DNA of 33,990 nucleotides from an uncultured Erysipelotrichaceae bacterium (GTDB lineage: Bacteria; Bacillota_I; Bacilli_A; RF39; UBA660): NCBI GenBank assembly GCA_902778125.1, contig CACYWH010000011.1:1-33990 (forward strand), read 5' to 3'. The position numbers and the translations under genes are program-made. Numbering within the stretch: position 1 is the stretch's first letter; each line of letters starts with the position of its first letter. The notes under the pieces are model-generated. The model saw nothing but the letters and a program-made list of their open reading frames with translations, did no database searches and was not told the origin of the DNA. Below, one piece after another: positions 13,525 to 18,166 of the stretch.

Positions 13525-13944
13525 ATGAGTACATACTTTGAATTAGTAAGTTATTTAGACAATGTAGTTGCATATGATATAAATGATGAAATTATTAAGA
13601 ATCTTAATGAAATGAACGTAGATTTAAGAGGAAATAGATATAATAGATTTTTAAATCATATTCTAGATATTTTAGATTACAGAATTAATACATACTATAA
13701 AGAATTGCATGATAGACTTGGAAAAATAAGGAATTTGGATGAGTTTGAAGATGAATTTAATAATTTGTTAGATGAAATAGATATTCAAATAAAACTATCT
13801 AGCATTGCCGTTATAGCAGAAGAAGATCATAATAAACTTGTTGATTTTATAAAAACAAATTTTAATGAGATATTGAATAGATTAAAAAAATATTATGAAA
13901 ATGATTCTGTATTTTTACATTATATTGATAAATATTATGTTTAA
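13525..13944 (+). CDS. 139-aa helical protein of unknown function
   Basis: Soluble, strongly charged and probably all-helical, with no membrane segment or known motif. It contains RGNRYNRFLNHILDILDYRIN near residue 36 and an acidic middle (DEFEDEFNNLLDEID). It is translated from an AAGGAG site inside the preceding microORF and is the last gene of the 526-aa operon. By context it is probably a partner of the 526-aa membrane protein. Confidence 0.8.
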   Translation: MSTYFELVSYLDNVVAYDINDEIIKNLNEMNVDLRGNRYNRFLNHILDILDYRINTYYKELHDRLGKIRNLDEFEDEFNNLLDEIDIQIKLSSIAVIAEEDHNKLVDFIKTNFNEILNRLKKYYENDSVFLHYIDKYYV

Positions 13945-13970
13945 AAAAGAAACTTTAAAGTTTCTTTTTT
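13943..13970. terminator. Bidirectional terminator for the 139-aa gene and the original amidase gene
   Basis: Stem AAAAAAGAAAC / GTTTCTTTTTT with loop TTTAAA, with T-tracts on both strands. The minus-strand gene it would serve is the interrupted amidase, whose last codon is at 13974. Confidence 0.85.
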
Positions 13971-14090
13971 TTAATCTGTAGGTATTAATAAATTTTGATT
14001 TATTTTCAAAACAGTAGAATCTAAATTATTAATTGTTAATAATTTCTTAACTGTCGTACCATATTTTTGAGCTATATCCCAAAGAGTATC
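13971..14090 (-). pseudogene. Orphaned 3' end of the LysM amidase gene (fifth LysM repeat)
   Basis: Minus-strand translation gives GDTLWDIAQKYGTTVKK, then LLTINNLDSTVLKINQNLL, then IPTD and stop at 13971. This is a near-complete LysM repeat lacking only its first strand, with no start codon or ribosome site. It continues exactly where the amidase at 16901-18166 leaves off (YVVKKGD). Between the two halves lies the recombinase element. The original terminator is still present right after the stop. Confidence 0.9.
14087..14090. repeat. Element junction next to the recombinase gene (att core)
   Basis: TATC shared with 16927-16930. On the minus strand the context is GGA-GATA-CTCTTTGG, where CTCTTTGG onward is amidase LysM code. 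The recombinase stop is at 14105. Confidence 0.7.
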
Positions 14091-14104
14091 TCCTGATACA
14101 ATTT

Positions 14105-15664
14105 TTATGTAGCATTTTTAAATGTAAATATAATATCTATCGTCTTATCTTGATAGATATAAATCTTTTCAACTAAATTAATTATTAATTCTCTTGTTGG
14201 ATTTTCAAGTGATAAAAATTCATTAATATATTTTTCTATTTGTTTATTATCTATTTTGTTTTCTTCTATTTGTTCATTTTTAAGATTGTCAATATTCTTT
14301 TTATTATTGTCTATTTCTTTTTTTATATTTTCACTTACTCTAATATATTGTTCTTCATCAATAATACCTTTAAGTCTATCCATATATGTTTTATCTAGGT
14401 TTTTAGTTAGTTTATTATTAGTTATTTCTAAACTCTCAATTTGTTTTTTTATCTTCAATGTATTATCAACAAACTCTATACTATTAATAGATTCTTTTAT
14501 TTTATTTTTATCTAAATACTTTTTACATACTTCTCTTATATTATCTAAAATAACACTTTCTAATACTTCATAATTATTTGTATGGGTTGTACAAACATGA
14601 TATTTTGAATATGTTCTATAATAATCACAAGTAGTATAACTTCTTCCTGTCTTATTTTGATATCTAATTGTAATTCTATGTTTACAATCCCCACAATATA
14701 AGAGTCCATCTAATAAATAAAATCTTTTCTTCTCTGGTCTTTTAACATTTTTAGGTAGTAGAGTTTGTACATAATTAAATGTACTCTTGTCAATAATTGC
14801 TTCATGTGTATTTTCAACTATAATGTAGTCATTTGGATTATTTTTAATAGTCTTTTTCAATTTATAATTAATCTTTTTAGTCTTACCCTGTACTGCATCT
14901 CCTGTATATATTCTATTAGTTAAAATGGCTTTTATAGTAGTATCTACCCATACTCCATATTCTTGTGATATACAATTAGTATTAATACACTTAGTATTCC
15001 ATACATAATTATAATAAGATGCCGGTGTTTTAATTTTTCTTTCAGTAAGATATTGTGCTATATAATGATATGTATTACCTTTAAGTGCTAAATCAAATAT
15101 TAATTTAACAACTTTTGCTTGTTCCTCATTGATTACTAAATGATTTTTATTATTTGGATCCTTCGTATAACCAAATGGACATCTTCCTGATACATATAAG
15201 CCATCTTTCATTCTAGTGTGTAAACTGCTTTTAATCTTTTTAGAAATATCTTTAGCATACATATCATTCATTATGGCTTTAAAAGGTGCAATATCATTAT
15301 TAGTATTATCTATAAAAGTATCTATGCCATCGTTAATAGCAATATACCTAATATTATTATTTGGAAAATACTTTTCTATTAATTCTCCAGTGCCTATATA
15401 ATCTCTACCTAATCTAGACATATCTTTTGTAATAATCATATTGATTTTGCCTAGTTCAATATCTTTCATCATTCTTTTGAATGATGGTCTATCAAAATTA
15501 GTTCCAGAGAATCCATCATCTACATATTCATCTAATACTATATAATTGTTTTCTTTAACATATTGATTAAGTAAACTTCTTTGACTAACAATACTATCAG
15601 ATTCTACATTTCCATCATCTCTTGATAATCTTATATAAAGTCCTACTTTAAAGCTATTATTCAC
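14105..15664 (-). CDS. Large serine recombinase (site-specific integrase)
   Basis: Catalyses integration and excision of its element through a serine-DNA intermediate. The resolvase domain at residues about 6-150 has catalytic-Ser motif YIRLSRDD, DDGFSGTNFDRP and TKDMSRLGRDY. The recombinase domain follows (GRCPFGYTKDP). A zinc ribbon (LLYCGDCKHRI ... CDYYRTYSKYHVCTTHT) comes next, and then a long coiled coil (about 400-490) as in phage-type large serine integrases. 519 aa is normal and no lesion is seen, so it may be active. GTG 15664 is 4 nt after the stop of the 59-aa ORF, pointing to coupled translation. It is the last gene of the element's operon. Confidence 0.95.
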   Translation of the reverse strand: MNNSFKVGLYIRLSRDDGNVESDSIVSQRSLLNQYVKENNYIVLDEYVDDGFSGTNFDRPSFKRMMKDIELGKINMIITKDMSRLGRDYIGTGELIEKYFPNNNIRYIAINDGIDTFIDNTNNDIAPFKAIMNDMYAKDISKKIKSSLHTRMKDGLYVSGRCPFGYTKDPNNKNHLVINEEQAKVVKLIFDLALKGNTYHYIAQYLTERKIKTPASYYNYVWNTKCINTNCISQEYGVWVDTTIKAILTNRIYTGDAVQGKTKKINYKLKKTIKNNPNDYIIVENTHEAIIDKSTFNYVQTLLPKNVKRPEKKRFYLLDGLLYCGDCKHRITIRYQNKTGRSYTTCDYYRTYSKYHVCTTHTNNYEVLESVILDNIREVCKKYLDKNKIKESINSIEFVDNTLKIKKQIESLEITNNKLTKNLDKTYMDRLKGIIDEEQYIRVSENIKKEIDNNKKNIDNLKNEQIEENKIDNKQIEKYINEFLSLENPTRELIINLVEKIYIYQDKTIDIIFTFKNAT

Positions 15665-15668
15665 GTGC

Positions 15669-15848
15669 CTAATTACTACTCCCTTCTATTTGGGAATAAT
15701 GAGTAGACTCTAATGGTAGCTCTCTATCTAAATAATTGCAAGTCATGTTCAACTTCTTTTGTAATTCTATTTTTAATACTTCAGTTATTATTTCATTTAA
15801 AGAAATAGATGCATCTTTAAACTTTAAATTAACCTTGTATTTAACCAT
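15669..15848 (-). CDS. 59-aa protein of the recombinase operon
   Basis: Start ATG 15848 (MVKYKVNLKFKDASISL) with GGAGG 11 nt upstream; a TTG at 15866 is less likely because the Shine-Dalgarno would lie inside the coding part. It overlaps the stop of the 33-aa ORF by 8 bp and ends 4 bp before the recombinase. The predicted structure is a beta strand followed by a helix; no family is recognised. Small conserved ORFs just before large serine recombinases can be directionality or regulatory factors, but that role here is a guess. Confidence 0.65.
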   Translation of the reverse strand: MVKYKVNLKFKDASISLNEIITEVLKIELQKKLNMTCNYLDRELPLESTHYSQIEGSSN

Positions 15849-15942
15849 AGAGTTTGATACCTCCAATTAATTCTATGGTATTTATTTTTGTAATATTACT
15901 TGGTATGATTTCTGCATACCTAATAATATTACTTAATCTCAT
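15841..15942 (-). CDS. 33-aa microprotein of the recombinase operon
   Basis: ATG 15942, preceded by AAGGAGG at 4 nt, encodes MRLSNIIRYAEIIPSN, then ITKINTIELIGGIKLYG and stop. It contains a mix of hydrophobic and polar residues rather than Lys/Asn-rich random code, and it overlaps the next ORF by 8 bp (ATGGTTAA). It is too short for a recognisable domain. The ribosome site and overlaps support translation. Confidence 0.55.
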   Translation of the reverse strand: MRLSNIIRYAEIIPSNITKINTIELIGGIKLYG

Positions 15943-15958
15943 AATCCTCCTTATTCAT
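15929..15958 (-). CDS. Possible 9-aa leader ORF
   Basis: ATG 15958 (MNKEDYEIK, stop) lies 9 nt after AAAGGAG. Its own codons carry the Shine-Dalgarno of the 33-aa ORF, which it overlaps by 14 bp. It may only be a coupling leader. Confidence 0.3.
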   Translation of the reverse strand: MNKEDYEIK

Positions 15959-15981
15959 AAACATCATCTCCTTTTGATTGA

Positions 15982-16011
15982 ATGATACCTCTCTTAAAAT
16001 ATAAGAGTCAA
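15982..16011 (-). promoter_or_regulatory. Promoter with operator for the recombinase operon
   Basis: Minus strand: TTGACT (16011-16006), an 18-bp spacer and TATCAT (15987-15982); +1 about 15975, next to AAAGGAG. The spacer holds a perfect inverted repeat, CTCTTA-AAATA-TAAGAG (15991-16007), well placed for a repressor. Confidence 0.6.
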
Positions 16012-16052
16012 GTCATTTACTATGGCAAGTTTTATCTATCATCCTAAAACGA

Positions 16053-16187
16053 TTCATAATTTATGAAAATATAAAACAGCAGGATAAGAAGATGGTGTAA
16101 CAACATGCGTTTTTCCTTATAAAATAAGGACTTGTGTATACACCATTCTTATTTCGTACTTACTAAATTCAACCTACTTTGTAGGTT
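16053..16187. other. Non-coding block of nested hairpins inside the element
   Basis: The stretch 15959-16308 holds no gene of useful size. It contains TTCATAA-T-TTATGAA (16053-16067), a long stem pairing ATAAGAA/TGGTGTA (about 16085-16099) with TACACCA/TTCTTAT (about 16138-16151) that encloses TCCTTAT-AAA-ATAAGGA (16114-16130), and AACCTAC-TTT-GTAGGTT (16171-16187). It could be a structured RNA, recombinase accessory sites or a single-strand origin. It matches no RNA family I recognise. Confidence 0.6.
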
Positions 16188-16245
16188 AATATAAAGGATG
16201 ATTATTTAATAAATCTTTATATTATAAGATATTAAAACATAAAAA

Positions 16246-16289
16246 AATCATCCTATTACCTAATTTTTATTAGATTTTATAGGATGATT
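16246..16289 (-). terminator. Terminator of the RyR-domain cargo gene
   Basis: Outer stem AATCATCCTAT (16246-16256) / ATAGGATGATT (16279-16289) enclosing inner stem CTAAT / ATTAG. On the minus strand it is followed by seven T. It lies 20 bp after the cargo stop. Confidence 0.75.
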
Positions 16290-16308
16290 AATTTTTATTA
16301 TAAATTAA

Positions 16309-16845
16309 TTATAATTTTTTTCCAGATAATTGAATTCCATATTGATCACAAATTGATGCAACATCTATCAAACCACTCATATAGGCTTGAACTTTTGCTT
16401 GTGCAGGACCAACTTGTGCTTTATCTTTGTCTTGTTCTTCTTTAGATAATTGATCATATGGAACAGCTAGTTTTGGATCACCATAATTTGGATCATAAAC
16501 CCAAGAATTTCTTTTTAACCATTCTTCATGAATAGTTGCGCCCATTTGTTCTAGCTCTTCAGATGTAATTGGTTCACTAGCCATTGTCTTATCATAAACC
16601 AATTCAATTGCAACTCTTGCGGCCTCTAAGTTTTCATATTGCCAATTTGATGGTAATTCCTCAAAAGAACAATTCGCAATATCAACCTCATCAGTTCCAT
16701 GACTTGCATTCCATACTTCATCTTTTGATTTTTTGATTCTTGGTTCAAAAGTGCCATCTTCTTTTTTTCTAGGTGCTCTCCATGCTTCGTGTAAATCTGA
16801 ACCCAATGCATATGAAAGTGCATCTTTTACAATTTTATCGTCCAT
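16309..16845 (-). CDS. RyR-domain protein, cargo of the recombinase element
   Basis: 178 aa. The C-terminal half contains HEEWLKRNSWVYDPNYGDP followed by LAVPYDQLSKEEQDKDK, the pattern of the RyR repeat (HExW, a W-x-Y turn, then P.L.VPYD.L...E...D). The N-terminal part (ALGSDLHEAWRAPRK, ELPSNWQYENLEAARVAIELVYD) carries the aligned first helices of bacterial RyR proteins. It is richer in Ala, Trp, Asp and Pro and poorer in Asn/Ile/Lys than neighbours, which fits recent transfer. GGAGG lies 9 nt before ATG 16845, with its own promoter and terminator. Bacterial RyR proteins are thought to bind small ligands, possibly nucleotides; the role here is unknown. Confidence 0.75.
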   Translation of the reverse strand: MDDKIVKDALSYALGSDLHEAWRAPRKKEDGTFEPRIKKSKDEVWNASHGTDEVDIANCSFEELPSNWQYENLEAARVAIELVYDKTMASEPITSEELEQMGATIHEEWLKRNSWVYDPNYGDPKLAVPYDQLSKEEQDKDKAQVGPAQAKVQAYMSGLIDVASICDQYGIQLSGKKL

Positions 16846-16866
16846 TTATTATTCCTCCTTTAACAT

Positions 16867-16875
16867 ATTGTATCA
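16867..16875 (-). promoter_or_regulatory. Extended -10 promoter of the RyR-domain gene
   Basis: The minus strand reads TGATACAAT, +1 about 16860, leader of about 15 nt containing AAAGGAGG. It lies just inside the element end. Confidence 0.5.
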
Positions 16876-16900
16876 TATTTTTAGCTTTTTTTAACATAAT

Positions 16901-18166
16901 TTACTCATTATTCCCCATAAAAATCCTATCACCTTTTTTAACAACATAGGTATTATAATTTGTAGATCCTGGTATTTTTAATACTTGTCCAATTTGTAAA
17001 GTGTTTGTTGATAACTTGTTAAGTTTTATTATATCATCTATCTTAACATCATATTTATTTGCAATTGTATATAAATTGTCTCCTTTTTGTACGATATAAT
17101 TTATTTCACCAGTAGATTTACTCGGTATATTTAATACTTGTCCAATCTGCAAAATATCACTCTTAAGATTATTTAACTCCTTGATTTCTGAAACAGTTAT
17201 TCCATTTAAAGCAGCTATGTCAAATAAAGTGTCTCCTTTTTTAACAATGTATATATTATTTTTTATACCCGTTTTTTCATTTTTAGGTATAAATATTTGC
17301 TGATTAATTGTTAAATTTGAATTAGATAGATTATTTATATTTTTTAAAGTTTCAACAGTAGTATTATATTCTTTTGCAATATCCCATAGTGAGTCTCCTT
17401 TTTTAACTGTATATAGTAAATATTCATCTGGAACAACTTCATCTATATCAGTAACATTTAATGTTTGACCCACTTTTAATACATTTGTTGATAACTTGTT
17501 AATTTCTTTAAGTTTTTTAACAGTAGTACCAAATTGATTTGCTATGCTCCATAAAGAATCGCCTTTTTTAACTGTATAATAATTTGAATTAGCAGGAGCT
17601 ACATATTTAATATTTGCATAATTACATACTGCTCTTACTACTGCCTCTGCATATTTTTCATAATTTTTTTTAATCTGTTCTACATCATCTTTAGGACTAT
17701 CAACAAATCCATATTCAACTATAATTGTTTCATTATTTGGAGTGTCTCTGTGCATAAAATAATAGTCTTTTATAGGATTACTTGGCAATCTAAGTTGATA
17801 ATATTTCCTAATATTTTGCCCCTCTTTTTCTATTTCATCCAAAACCTTTTTTGAAAGATTACTATTATTTCTAAGAGCATATATAACTTCTGCTCCATCT
17901 CCACCTCCTGCATTTAAATGATTTGATATTACTATTACATCTTTTCCATTTCCAAAAAAACTCTGAACTTTTGATGTTCTTTCCTTAGGAGATAAAGTTA
18001 CATCTGTATCTCTAGTTAATTTAACTGGAACATTTAAAGCCTTAAATCTATCATACATATATTTGCTTATTAACAATGTATAGTCTTTTTCTTTTAAATT
18101 ATTAGAAACAGCCCCAGGATCTGTACCACCATGTCCTGGATCAATAACAATACCTTTTAAAGCCAT
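16901..18166 (-). CDS. LysM N-acetylmuramoyl-L-alanine amidase, 3'-truncated by the element
   Basis: 421 aa from ATG 18166 (AGGTGAT site; an in-frame start at 18199 lacks one). The N-terminal Amidase_3 domain cleaves MurNAc-L-Ala; Zn ligands and the catalytic Glu are in VIDPGHGGTDPGA, SNHLNAGGGDGAEV and IIVEYGFVDSP. Four complete LysM repeats follow (about residues 195-412), each opening with [KQ]KGD. A fifth starts TYVVKKGD and then changes to RIFMGNNE and a stop supplied by the element. The rest of it is at 13971-14090. There is no signal peptide, so export is unexplained. The truncated enzyme is probably still active. Confidence 0.92.
   Translation of the reverse strand: MALKGIVIDPGHGGTDPGAVSNNLKEKDYTLLISKYMYDRFKALNVPVKLTRDTDVTLSPKERTSKVQSFFGNGKDVIVISNHLNAGGGDGAEVIYALRNNSNLSKKVLDEIEKEGQNIRKYYQLRLPSNPIKDYYFMHRDTPNNETIIVEYGFVDSPKDDVEQIKKNYEKYAEAVVRAVCNYANIKYVAPANSNYYTVKKGDSLWSIANQFGTTVKKLKEINKLSTNVLKVGQTLNVTDIDEVVPDEYLLYTVKKGDSLWDIAKEYNTTVETLKNINNLSNSNLTINQQIFIPKNEKTGIKNNIYIVKKGDTLFDIAALNGITVSEIKELNNLKSDILQIGQVLNIPSKSTGEINYIVQKGDNLYTIANKYDVKIDDIIKLNKLSTNTLQIGQVLKIPGSTNYNTYVVKKGDRIFMGNNE
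16927..16930. repeat. Element junction next to the amidase 5' part (att core)
   Basis: TATC matching 14087-14090. On the minus strand the context is AAAAAAGGT-GATA-GGATTTTT; the amidase LysM code ends here. Confidence 0.7.

Follow-up and report, generated by a model that had tools for sequence, protein, structure and literature searches.

Recurrent interruption of LysM repeats by a serine-recombinase element family in gut bacteria suggests homing on a protein-domain codon block

We describe a family of small mobile elements from dozens of related gut bacteria whose large serine recombinase appears to direct them into the codons of the LysM repeat, a domain shared by many cell wall proteins. 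In the window analyzed here (the whole stretch of 33,990 nucleotides, from an uncultured Erysipelotrichaceae bacterium), an integrated element of 2,840 bp (14092-16931, minus strand) splits an amidase gene inside its fifth LysM repeat. The best explanation, to which we assign a probability of about 0.9, is that the element belongs to a LysM-homing family whose members would exchange strands at a GG dinucleotide in a conserved glycine codon of the repeat.

The amidase ORF (16901-18166; minus strand, as are all features below unless stated) contains an Amidase_3 domain and four LysM repeats, and ends in NTYVVKKGD followed by RIFMGNNE and a stop codon. A domain search places the Amidase_3 domain and four complete repeats (17453-17578, 17285-17413, 17123-17251 and 16970-17098) in the 5' part of the host gene, 16934-18166, which is cut in repeat 5 after NTYVVKK. 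The 3' remnant of repeat 5, with its native stop, lies at 13971-14093; a fifth LysM match covers 13980-14105, with the stop at 13971 (Pfam LysM, 8e-15 to 2e-15). When the flanks were joined by script, the two parts of the interrupted gene met in frame, resuming at GDTLWDIA, and produced a single open frame of 451 codons with five LysM repeats. A sequence-only reading of the window had proposed an amidase that breaks off inside a LysM repeat, a remnant on the minus strand and, between them, 2.84 kb with an intact-looking large serine recombinase; the domain matches, the joined frame and the three domains of the recombinase bear out each of these points. Two of its details need correction. The eight codons that it took to be unrelated are the conserved left end of the element, found in 38 loci, and the palindrome at about 13944-13970 that it described as a bidirectional terminator was not called as such by a terminator scan.

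The LysM codon pattern GGNGAYACNNTNTGGNNNATWGC, with up to three mismatches, matches seven times in the window against 0.26 expected. An unoccupied allele, which the earlier reading had proposed to seek in related genomes, is found in a congener: G013, which has no close recombinase, contains an intact ORF of 471 codons to which 451 of the 451 residues of the joined protein align, at 83% identity and gapless at the junction. As in the window, its neighbors are a SleB-like hydrolase and a large ORF. The excess of pattern matches and the intact allele argue that the split of the fifth repeat is not due to chance, and the view that a serine-recombinase element has inserted into LysM 5 of an Amidase_3/LysM gene is strongly supported.

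Within the genus, the amidase query matches 16 of 18 genomes, some of the matches being LysM-only. Two congeners, G000 and G017, have a close recombinase, and these alone contain the left end of the element. Recombinase-free genomes with a four-LysM protein ending in RIFMGNNE had been named as the case that would speak against insertion; the IFMGNNE tail was seen only alongside a close recombinase, in these two genomes. In the orthologous amidase of G017 the element sits in LysM 1, a repeat that G014 and G016 have in uninterrupted form. Occupancy is thus patchy, with 2 of 18 congeners affected, in different repeats. The same amidase gene is also cut at a second place, between NHLNAGG and GDGAEV in the catalytic domain, beside other recombinases that are 38-39% and about 32% identical to that of the window (L157, L158, L068, L083, L161, L169 and L174). 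Cargo at this second site includes an OLD/HEC-01A-like ATPase and an Mrr-type endonuclease, and one G017 amidase gene appears to have been hit at least twice.

The left end of the window element (16901-16931), conserved in 38 loci, forms the P' arm (GATA..ATTTTTATGGGGAATAATGAGTAA) and gives the host protein its RIFMGNNE-stop tail. It is followed by a cargo ORF of 178 aa (16309-16845) with weak similarity to ryanodine-receptor repeats (best PDB match, E=0.003) and no match in Pfam or NCBIfam. Between the cargo and a small ORF sits a conserved hairpin (16074-16161), in which all six pairs of the inner helix change on both sides across 28 loci; this stretch is probably a structured RNA, although Rfam holds no close or convincing family for it. 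The small ORF (15669-15848; 59 aa, MVKYKVNLKF...) adjoins the recombinase and was recognized in 37 of the 50 loci in which the stretch is readable; we consider it a candidate accessory or directionality factor. Beside the recombinase start lies an inverted copy of the left-end sequence, GGGAATAATGAGTA (15692-15705, plus strand; recognized in 39 of 50 loci), which may serve as a self-regulatory binding site. The recombinase itself (14105-15664) is intact at 519 aa, with YIRLSRDD and SRLGRD motifs and full Resolvase (PF00239), Recombinase (PF07508) and Zn_ribbon_recom (PF13408) domains, the layout of large serine recombinases (about 450-700 aa). It is predicted to be catalytically active on attP and attB. 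Its stop codon is overlapped by the right end (14092-14111; P arm, TACATAAAAATTGTATCAGG), conserved in 75 right ends, whose last two bases are the attR GG. Cargo ORF, small ORF and recombinase all run in the same direction.

To survey the target, the recombinase protein alone was scanned against one genome per species, so that the loci recruited are free of LysM bias. There are at least 475 relatives, of which the best 80 (81-96% identical) were examined. Most of the loci come from metagenome-assembled genomes, and the pattern recurs in many independent assemblies. In most of these best 80, the recombinase stop is directly followed on its 3' side by ACATAAAAAnnGTATCwGG and then by the LysM of a different gene; about 76 of their 79 recognizable right ends run straight into a LysM at the glycine codon of its GD motif. 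Counted over all right-end matches in the recombinase-recruited loci, 73 of 82 start a LysM at the glycine codon with E<0.01. The other nine comprise three intragenic chance matches, one truncated by a contig end, two weak LysM matches (E 0.016 and 0.047) and three non-LysM right ends (L051, L115 and L094, the last an attP-like junction with a degenerate core). Both ends could be found in 36 elements, and all 36 are spliced into a LysM at the same glycine codon, L063 with only two host codons beyond. Their hosts include Amidase_3, GH25, M23, PG_binding_1 and LysM-only proteins, and the site thus recurs across many wall proteins, as had been predicted.

That insertions in many wall proteins fall on one and the same dinucleotide of the repeat indicates that the element aims at a protein domain and not at one gene; recurrent LysM targeting by this family is strongly supported by the loci compared. 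Targeted and untargeted LysM repeats of the same proteins differ weakly, at 2 of 36 positions, which suggests that the LysM codon block itself is the site. A genome-wide pattern of the right end with a LysM-like continuation, which includes LysM-like positions and hence undercounts non-LysM insertions, was detected in 31 of the family's 291 genomes and in 29 of its 150 genera; its reversal, used as a control, gave no match. A few loci are more complex. At L089 (4045-5387), an attP-like junction directly follows the recombinase and is succeeded by a recombinase-free piece of 1.34 kb and then by a LysM; this piece is possibly a tandem, non-autonomous element, and the attP-like junctions of L089 and L094, with their degenerate cores, may be tandem relics. 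On L104, a 6.7-kb contig, the right end occurs twice in identical form and is followed each time by the same remnant; assembly probably accounts for this, although the locus may be duplicated.

The crossover point most likely coincides with the GG that opens the glycine codon, at 16932-16933 in attL and 14092-14093 in attR. This dinucleotide is invariant in 38 attL and 75 attR sites, and the two P arms form an imperfect inverted repeat centered on it. The base that follows GG is a G at 21 of 36 attL sites, whereas the remaining LysM repeats of these proteins have it in 10 of 92 (p=9e-8); with this excess at the wobble position, the base looks element-derived. In attR the wobble base fits the background of LysM repeats (p=0.25) and the next codon has GAC variants, which gives it a host-derived look. 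The sequence-only reading had joined the flanks at a shared GATA. The single frame with five LysM repeats that it obtained stands, since the joined protein is identical whether the crossover is at GG or at GATA; as the crossover itself GG is better supported, and GATA was rejected as first choice on account of the host-like GAC variants in attR and the element-like GAATA variants in attL.

We thus propose a family of small elements that combine a single large serine recombinase with variable cargo and, in most cases, a small accessory ORF. The enzyme would join the attP of the circular element, CATAAAAATtgTATC-A-GG-n-GATAcgATTTTTATG, to an attB consisting of the LysM codon block (Y-x-V-K-x-G-D-T-L-W), with exchange at the glycine-codon GG; every LysM repeat, whatever the wall protein, could serve as attB. 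Integration would truncate the host protein inside the repeat and add a short, fixed, element-encoded tail and a stop codon. Judging from the recombinase family, precise excision would restore the host frame exactly.

Comparison across genera makes horizontal spread of the elements apparent. In five other genera (G227, G225, G195, G061 and G197) the recombinases are 86-90% identical, against 65-71% for GlyA, and the window recombinase is 94%, up to 96%, identical to some in other genera against 88% to that of its congener G017. Complete elements measure about 2.6-6.4 kb and their cargo varies: type II restriction-modification genes in L040 and related genes in L073, an OLD-like ATPase with RhuM in L077 and L083, and elsewhere Fic, NUDIX, Ham1, ASCH, HAD, HD, HNH and other genes. 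Part of this cargo is defense-related and many cargo genes are not. In phage and plasmid records, the relatives all fall below 60% identity. With its recombinase, small ORF and single cargo ORF, and with no phage structural or replication genes, the window element does not qualify as a prophage. Eight short or unusual contigs checked for circularity had no terminal overlap.

An assembly chimera or a misread junction could in principle imitate an insertion, and the loci do stem mostly from metagenome-assembled genomes, and one contig (L104) repeats its own end. However, 36 loci show LysM halves on either side of the same pair of ends, with frames that join exactly, so that we give this explanation practically no credence. 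We may also ask whether insertion serves the host. According to the earlier reading, excision would switch the amidase between four and five LysM repeats; a reversible switch of this kind would vary LysM number and hence wall binding. The exact restoration of the frame is consistent with such a phase switch, as are the repeats left intact upstream of the cut in several hosts. On the other hand, the repeat that is hit differs between orthologues, and excision by serine integrases as a rule depends on a directionality factor (PMC5025042). Moreover, the cuts at L054, L079 and L085 leave about 10 host residues, so that nearly the whole protein is lost; such copies argue against a four/five-LysM switch as a general purpose, and the switch is not directly supported and is considered unlikely.

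Developmentally programmed excision, like that of skin, of SP-beta from spsM or of gin, deserves somewhat more weight: the element might leave the chromosome at a given stage, for example in the sporulating mother cell, and thereby rebuild wall proteins that are needed there. Spore formers are known to undergo rearrangements of this type (PMC5595907, PMC4191935, PMC5025042, PMC10747680), and the genome of the window encodes Spo0A and SpoIVA. The severed host parts also look well kept: 74 of 76 remnants reach a stop within the contig, and early stops are not evident in any. Eight have the length of one repeat, 37-39 aa, and the others cluster close to whole multiples of it. Young insertions, however, would also account for intact remnants, and the patchy occupancy in the genus, in different repeats, speaks against a fixed programme. 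In L098 and L114, which resemble one inherited insertion, the severed part has a dN/dS of 0.075, a value typical of strong constraint; the recombinases of the two are nearer to those of other elements than to one another, and L098 is drawn toward other elements by both recombinase and cargo, so the insertions are possibly independent and the value is given no weight here. A further point in favor is that a recombinase family about 41% identical to that of the window sits in spoIVA in relatives. Its loci are L218, L219 and L220, and in G007 and G012 the SpoIVA matches, too, are split or partial at residue 122. On balance, programmed excision is possible but doubtful. We are a shade more tentative about a wider hypothesis in which the recombinase homes on LysM codons as distributed, renewable landing sites and the elements of spore formers are excised at a set stage, rebuilding wall proteins.

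The preferred reading, a mobile family that homes on LysM codons, has partial precedents. Multi-targeting large serine recombinases have been described, among which close relatives use many target gene clusters for integration; the target motifs of some are complex, and some have possibly evolved toward sequences present at several sites (Durrant et al., PMC10083194). The present recombinases, closely related to one another, likewise occupy more than three target gene clusters that are unrelated, counted here by host class in place of the exact 90%/50% clustering of that work. The shared target of the present family differs in being the codon block of a single repeat domain in a fixed codon phase. 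DUF4368, which occurs in most of the published clade (and is typical of it but not strictly defining), was not found here by Pfam search, and the main text of PMC10083194 does not mention LysM. Sporulation gene-intervening elements such as skin (sigK), SP-beta (spsM), gin (gerE) and yin (yabG) are alike in that a serine-recombinase element splits a host gene, which precise excision would restore. Each of these, however, resides in one particular gene, whereas the window family occupies many wall proteins. Gin is a non-phage element that carries restriction-modification genes (PMC5595907); the present elements are far smaller (2.6-6.4 kb against 28.6 kb).

In recombinase domain architecture and cassette-like variable cargo, the family also resembles Tn4451-type elements with TnpX, the closest solved chain in the PDB, and Ccr systems. 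The best NCBIfam match is CcrB, but its 117.4 bits fall far below the cut-off of 900 and do not place the enzyme among the Ccr recombinases. SCC elements target rlmH, whereas the window element targets LysM codons. A search of titles and abstracts in the open-licence literature returned no report of LysM as an attachment site of a serine recombinase or integrase. Multi-targeting recombinases and gene-intervening elements are established; in the literature so covered we found no description of a family whose members share, as their target, the codon block of one repeat domain.

Recognition of a repeat domain at the DNA level would represent a middle way between integrases that use one site and those that target loosely. 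A conserved repeat-domain target would provide the element with many landing sites per genome, in many species. The family also offers a large natural set of paired attL and attR sites from which recombinase specificity may be learned, and a case in which programmed excision of such elements can be put to the test. Other recombinase families occur in other wall and spore genes of the same genomes, and insertion into such genes may therefore be a general habit.
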